40,427 nucleotides of DNA from Promethearchaeota archaeon (GTDB lineage: Archaea; Asgardarchaeota; Lokiarchaeia; Sigyniarchaeales; SOKP01), in the NCBI GenBank assembly GCA_004524535.1, contig SDNY01000019.1:1-40427 (forward strand), read 5' to 3'. The position numbers and the translations under genes are program-made. Shown one piece after another: positions 15,684 to 16,302 of this stretch (positions within the stretch are counted from its first letter, which is position 1; the number at the start of each line of letters is the position of its first letter). Under the pieces are notes generated by a model. The model worked only from the letters and a program-made list of their open reading frames with translations, ran no database searches and was not told where the DNA came from.

Positions 15684-15977
15684 TTATTTTACGCATCGGC
15701 ATGGAATAGAATTGCATTTGCTACATTTATTTGGATACTTATCAAATAAAGCTTTTTCAACATCAATATCTAATAAATTTGCTAATGAATTAGCCCAAGC
15801 AATTACATCTGCTATTTCTTCCGAAGCTTTCTCTTTATTAATCTTTTGATCCTTTATAATTCTTGCTAATTCTCCTATTTCTTCAACTAACCAAATAAAT
15901 GTGGACTTTTTCCCTCTTTTAGAATCTCTATTGAAATATATTTCTTTTATCATTTTTTGAAAATCAGAGATTTTCAT
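15684..15977 (-). CDS. MazG-like nucleotide pyrophosphohydrolase with cysteine-rich tail
   Basis: 97 aa from the preferred start at ATG 15977 (the frame is open to 16004, but MKISDFQKMIKEIY is the family start). The EEIGELARIIKD and EEIADVIAWANSL motifs give the EExxE-12-28-ExxD metal site of all-alpha MazG enzymes, which hydrolyse (d)NTPs to monophosphates. The last ~15 residues contain four cysteines (CSKCNSIPCRC), a possible zinc knuckle seen in some archaeal MazG proteins. House-cleaning of nucleotides is the usual role. Confidence 0.88.
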   Translation of the reverse strand: MKISDFQKMIKEIYFNRDSKRGKKSTFIWLVEEIGELARIIKDQKINKEKASEEIADVIAWANSLANLLDIDVEKALFDKYPNKCSKCNSIPCRCVK

Positions 15978-16048: not shown

Positions 16049-16195
16049 TTAGCCTCCTGCGCTTCCTGGAGTTAAAATCCAAGCAAAAATTCCAAGATGT
16101 CCTAGAATTACGATTAAAATTAAGGTTGTTGCCAGCAATACCGTACTTATTGGACCAATTTTTACACCTATGCTTGAATCCTCGAAGAAGCGCAT
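16049..16195 (-). CDS. Sec61 beta (SecG-type), membrane part of a gene split in two
   Basis: 48 aa. RFFEDSSIGVKIGPISTVL followed by a single membrane helix (LLATTLILIVILGHLGIF) is the conserved cytoplasmic-to-membrane part of archaeal Sec61 beta, the small subunit of the SecYE-beta protein translocon. A full archaeal protein carries an N-terminal stretch ending ..AGLI directly before RFF/RYF. Here that stretch is encoded in the separate small ORF 16213-16302 just upstream, in another frame. ORF2 begins with its own ATG exactly at the R-F-F point. No other Sec gene is nearby. Confidence 0.75.
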   Translation of the reverse strand: MRFFEDSSIGVKIGPISTVLLATTLILIVILGHLGIFAWILTPGSAGG

Positions 16196-16224
16196 TTAAT
16201 CTTTTAACAGATTTATTCTGTTAC
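16193..16224 (-). other. 32-nt intervening segment with hairpin inside Sec61 beta
   Basis: The segment separates the codon for the last Ile of AGLI from the codon for the Arg of RFF. It contains in-frame stops from either side. On the minus strand TAACAG and CTGTTA form a perfect 6-bp hairpin with a 7-nt loop (16205-16223), an outer GCGCA/TGCGC pairing (16234-16238 with 16190-16194) brings the flanking coding parts together, and a 4-bp TAAT/ATTA pairing is possible between them. This resembles, but does not match, the bulge-helix-bulge of archaeal introns. Confidence 0.55.
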
Positions 16225-16302
16225 AATTAGACCTGCGCCTCCAAGTGGCATCGGACTAGATTTACTTCTTCTTTTTTTTCGTCTTGACTGTCTACGAGAC
16301 AT
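16213..16302 (-). CDS. N-terminal piece of Sec61 beta (29-aa ORF)
   Basis: The ORF reads a basic tail (SRRQSRRKKRRSKSS) then PMPLGGAGLI, matching the cytoplasmic start of archaeal Sec61 beta, and then VTE and a TAA stop. If the 32 bases at 16193-16224 are left out, AGLI joins RFFEDSS in frame and gives a complete ~72-aa Sec61 beta. As it stands, the gene is two ORFs 17 bases apart. Whether both are translated, the RNA is spliced, or the gene is broken cannot be told here. Confidence 0.6.
   Translation of the reverse strand: MSRRQSRRKKRRSKSSPMPLGGAGLIVTE

Follow-up and report, generated by a model that had tools for sequence, protein, structure and literature searches.

An intron in the pre-mRNA of cbf5 was reportedly described by Watanabe in 2002. 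As of 2009, no archaeal pre-mRNA splicing besides that of cbf5 had been confirmed, and putative introns had been predicted in other genes (Yokobori et al., 2009, PMC2738675). A paper from 2020 again named cbf5 as the sole earlier mRNA example and added a BHB in a 5′ UTR of Haloferax (PMC7714728). A search of published, largely open-access papers found no earlier report of a BHB intron in any protein-coding gene of an Asgard archaeon. Analysis of a 40,427-nt stretch of Lokiarchaeia DNA (hereafter the window) indicates that a 32-nt segment of its Sec61beta gene is very probably such an intron, spliced by EndA and recently gained. Like the cbf5 introns of Sulfolobales and Desulfurococcales, it would be a BHB intron that interrupts a coding sequence, with each cut falling behind the second base of a bulge, acquired by a single lineage and carried by a host with a two-subunit EndA (PMC2738675). 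The two cases differ in that cbf5 encodes a pseudouridine synthase of Crenarchaeota, whereas Sec61beta belongs to the protein translocon of an Asgard archaeon; that most cbf5 introns have an unconventional BHB, whereas the Sec61beta motif is a canonical 3-4-3; and that splicing of cbf5 has been confirmed experimentally, whereas the Sec61beta intron is predicted from sequence. In the HVO_1309 mRNA of Haloferax volcanii the splicing endonuclease likewise cleaves an mRNA at a BHB, but there the motif lies in the 5′ UTR and interrupts no reading frame, whereas the Sec61beta segment splits one (PMC7714728).

The Sec61beta gene occupies two ORFs in different frames of the minus strand, as the initial annotation had recognised. 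ORF1 (16213-16302; 29 aa, MSRRQSRRKKRRSKSSPMPLGGAGLIVTE) ends in GGAGLIVTE, and ORF2 (16049-16195; 48 aa, MRFFEDSSIGVKIGPISTVLLATTLILIVILGHLGIFAWILTPGSAGG) starts with MRFFEDSS. Each begins with an ATG, as also noted before, which makes separate translation conceivable and counts against the intron; the ATG of ORF2 is the ancestral internal Met codon. When joined, the two ORFs score 31.2 bits against the Pfam family Sec61_beta (PF03911, cut-off 27); ORF2 by itself stays just under the cut-off at 24.6 bits and ORF1 by itself has no Pfam match. The genome, which is 99% complete and comprises 3.66 Mb in 198 contigs, has no second copy of Sec61beta. Several other Lokiarchaeia genomes contain two Sec61beta genes each (CP070831.1; G063, G065, G026). 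Directly downstream of Sec61beta lies a small MazG-like ORF (15687-15977, minus strand), which is colinear in the sister species LW60_4.

The position of the excised segment can be defined from the frame that it restores. The initial annotation had proposed the removal of 32 nt at 16193-16224; the length stands, and the better-supported boundaries lie 3 nt away, at 16196-16227, a short AT repeat allowing the excision to slide by this distance. The former register joins the parts as AGLI-RFF. The shifted register brings together CTA and ATG to give AGL-M-RFFED, and only this one yields the Met of nearly all relatives and fits a canonical BHB. Accordingly placed, the predicted intron (16196..16227, minus strand, ATTGTAACAGAATAAATCTGTTAAAAGATTAA), bounded by a canonical 3-4-3 BHB in both species, would separate a 5′ exon of codons 1-25 (16228..16302, minus strand, MSRRQSRRKKRRSKSSPMPLGGAGL) from a 3′ exon (16049..16195, minus strand) that comprises MRFFEDSSIGVKIGP and the following sequence with the transmembrane helix. 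Cuts at CTA/ATTG...TTAA/ATG take out exactly 32 nt, leave no stop and recreate AGL-M-RFFED; the product is an uninterrupted protein of 73 aa in both species, and the spliced sequence aligns end to end with its relatives. The expectation that a canonical BHB cut would leave an in-frame TAA was incorrect. Where an intron, a split subunit and a recent break had all been left open, the intron is now preferred, and the doubt cast on a canonical BHB is not borne out.

The predicted fold around 16196-16227 consists of a 9-bp outer helix, a 3-nt bulge, a 4-bp central helix, a second 3-nt bulge and an inner helix of about 9 bp. The outer helix (GGAGGCGCA/UGCGCUUCU, 9 bp) is formed by GGAGGCGCA in exon 1 (16234..16242) and TGCGCTTCT in exon 2 (16186..16194), which includes the codon CGC, accounting for 4.6% of the Arg codons in the window; the GCGCA/TGCGC pairing already seen in the flanks belongs to this helix. 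In the central helix, GGTC (16230..16233) pairs with GATT at the end of the intron (16198..16201). The 5′ bulge is TAA (16227..16229) and the 3′ bulge AAA (16195..16197), each with the predicted cut after its second base. The inner helix, wholly intronic (16202..16226), is made of TT/AA, a G-A mismatch and TAACAGA/TCTGTTA around the loop ATAAA, all on the minus strand. In both species, 3-nt bulges on opposite strands, a 4-bp helix between them and flanking helices on either side compose the complete hBHBh′ arrangement. The central helix is weak, with two G-U pairs in GGUC/GAUU, and folding programs give it a pair probability of only 0.3-0.5, which counts against the predicted BHB; this value nevertheless equals or exceeds those of the two tRNA introns of the same genome (0.01-0.3), which counts in its favour. 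The hairpin inside the segment, previously given as 6 bp, is present in the window with 7 bp, one of which is lost in the sister species. A hairpin within a gap that is not a multiple of 3 would also suit translational bypassing, in which ribosomes would skip the 32 nt, a process known from gene 60 of phage T4. This reading is extremely improbable: no take-off and landing codons matching the required frame can be read from the sequence, the hairpin is weaker in the sister species and the BHB geometry would go unexplained.

The same BHB scanner was applied to the tRNA genes of the genome, where it recovered a 28-nt intron in tRNA-Pro and a 20-nt intron in tRNA-Ser(CGA), both at position 37/38, and its BHB geometry is therefore validated. 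These introns share with the 32-nt segment of Sec61beta the hBHBh′ 3-4-3 geometry and the cut positions; they differ from it in that the host RNA of the latter is an mRNA, and there is no clear sequence similarity. In the whole window (80.9 kb, both strands), the Sec61beta site is the only one with at least 8 outer and at least 7 inner pairs. Chance formation was assessed by 10^6 simulations in which the exons were replaced by synonymous sequences of matched codon usage and the intron was shuffled: a full central helix with at least 7 outer and at least 7 inner pairs appeared in 3 of the 10^6 runs, and the observed 9 and 9 in none. The probability of a coincidental BHB is below about 1e-5. Moreover, the outer helix has 9 of 9 contiguous pairs here, against at most 6 in 56 distinct sequences of intronless relatives, and it is therefore the synonymous codons GGC, CGC and TTC that complete the helix in the interrupted lineage. 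A scan of 306 kb of the genome for BHB segments that join ORFs returned 21 candidates including the Sec61beta site, none of the others being a convincing intron, which counts against the proposed reading; the next best sits inside an intact ORF. No further copy of the 32 nt was found in this or the sister genome at up to 3 mismatches, and within that limit the segment is therefore not a repeated element. The cbf5 (TruB) gene of the genome has no interruption.

The genome encodes the enzymes that such an intron would need. It contains two EndA paralogs. The alpha paralog (L096) has as closest PDB chains 3p1z_B and 3ajv_B, of the Aeropyrum pernix enzyme, and retains the active-site His and Lys; the beta paralog (L104) is without the catalytic His. 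The pair represents a catalytic-plus-structural EndA arrangement. A gene for the RNA ligase RtcB is also present, so that splicing endonuclease and ligase occur together in this host; RtcB was not found in the sister genome LW60_4, which is 79% complete. A search with RF00005 gave no more than 21 tRNA matches although the genome is 99% complete, and introns may conceal additional tRNA genes. One tRNA that reads as Thr(TGT) (contig C106; L109 1501-1601, minus strand) carries an insertion of about 30 nt immediately 3′ of its anticodon stem; it may have an intron at a non-canonical position, or the gene may be misread, as ARAGORN assigns it to Gly. Another (contig C22; L116 1501-1601, minus strand) has an insertion in the anticodon loop that departs from the canonical 3-4-3 BHB and may follow a relaxed motif.

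The Sec61beta loci of relatives were compared, as the initial annotation had suggested. Among 58 genomes searched, the sole other case is the sister species LW60_4 of the same genus, where the interruption lies at the identical site; in all other Sec61beta genes found in the class the site is uninterrupted. The two genomes are colinear over 10 kb at 94.4% DNA identity. An assembly or sequencing error might be suspected in a draft assembly of 198 contigs, but the independent assembly of LW60_4 has the same segment with two substitutions, and an error is therefore excluded. These substitutions (2 of the 32 positions) both fall in the inner helix, where U-A pairing replaces the G-A mismatch and a C-C opposition replaces one C-G pair; the outer and central helices are unchanged. 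With one inner pair gained and one lost between two sequences only, there is no clear compensatory covariation, a point against the proposed BHB. Sec61beta was found in 78 of 83 genomes of the class and is interrupted only in these two. At the retrieved loci in which the motif could be recognised, the sequence is GGN-Leu-ATG (or ATA/ATT/ATC)-Arg-TTY, encoding AGL-M/I-RFFED. L-M or L-I is therefore the ancestral state, with Met in nearly all intronless relatives. Within the genus, Sec61beta is intact in G001, and the two remaining members, both incomplete genomes, gave no match. Stop-containing Sec61beta matches in other genera were set aside, as they had the normal C-terminal stop or, judged by length, no insertion. 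On this distribution the interruption is derived, and the best reading is that it was recently gained inside one Lokiarchaeia genus.

The divergence between the two species also bears on whether the parts still function. Across the shared 10 kb, the synonymous divergence of the neighbouring genes is 11.8%. Exon 1, analysed as ORF1, has 1 nonsynonymous change where about 7 would be expected at the synonymous rate (P=0.005), and exon 2, analysed as ORF2, has 6 where 12.8 would be expected (P=0.02). The possibility that the gene is broken or decaying, with ORF2 alone or neither part working and the BHB-like fold a coincidence, is very unlikely on these grounds. It could appeal to the dispensability of Sec61beta in the eukaryotes studied (PMC2586087) and to a dN/dS near 1 for ORF2, calculated from 8 substitutions; yet both ORFs have stayed open in the two species despite that synonymous divergence, both show fewer nonsynonymous changes than neutrality predicts and the fold has the low chance probability given above. 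The main rival to the intron is reinitiation at the ATG of exon 2. The 32-nt insertion would then have broken Sec61beta into a membrane part, translated from the ancestral Met 17 nt past the stop of ORF1, and a separate basic peptide. This distance is short and operon-like, and the yeast beta subunit can function with nothing more than its transmembrane domain (PMC2770995, PMC2586087). However, ORF2 lacks a Shine-Dalgarno-like motif (the best match being 3 nt), a lack shared by many genes of the window, exon 1 has stayed conserved even though a split gene would reduce it to a free peptide of 29 aa, and the match of the insertion boundaries to a canonical BHB is left unexplained. We consider such a split gene improbable. 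Small as the numbers are, exon 1 is not decaying, and its conservation points to a joined product rather than to a leader peptide that could be dispensed with.

A canonical BHB intron is favoured because of the exact 3-4-3 geometry, the restoration of both the frame and the ancestral residue, the occurrence in two species and the presence of EndA alpha and beta together with RtcB. According to the proposed mechanism, the exon flanks and the intron of the Sec61beta pre-mRNA would fold into an hBHBh′, EndA, with alpha as catalytic and beta as structural subunit, would cleave both 3-nt bulges behind their second nucleotide, and the exons would be joined by RtcB into an mRNA for one normal Sec61beta. 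We infer that this cleavage and ligation take place in the cell, from an intron that one genus of Lokiarchaeia would have gained recently. A more speculative extension, which we hold to be rather unlikely, is a regulated switch in which the spliced mRNA gives the whole Sec61beta and translation of the unspliced one from the ATG of exon 2 gives the membrane part, EndA activity thereby tuning the translocon, with similar mRNA introns in further Asgard genes annotated as frameshifts.

If the intron is real, Sec61beta would be the second such gene after cbf5 in the literature searched, and its presence in the Asgard lineage, the closest to eukaryotes, would mean that EndA-type splicing of mRNA is more than an isolated case. 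The restriction of the gain to a single genus, together with the intronless sisters and the exact empty site, would make this a datable example of how an intron arises in an archaeal mRNA. The case also serves as a warning that short BHB introns may hide in archaeal genomes as apparent frameshifts.
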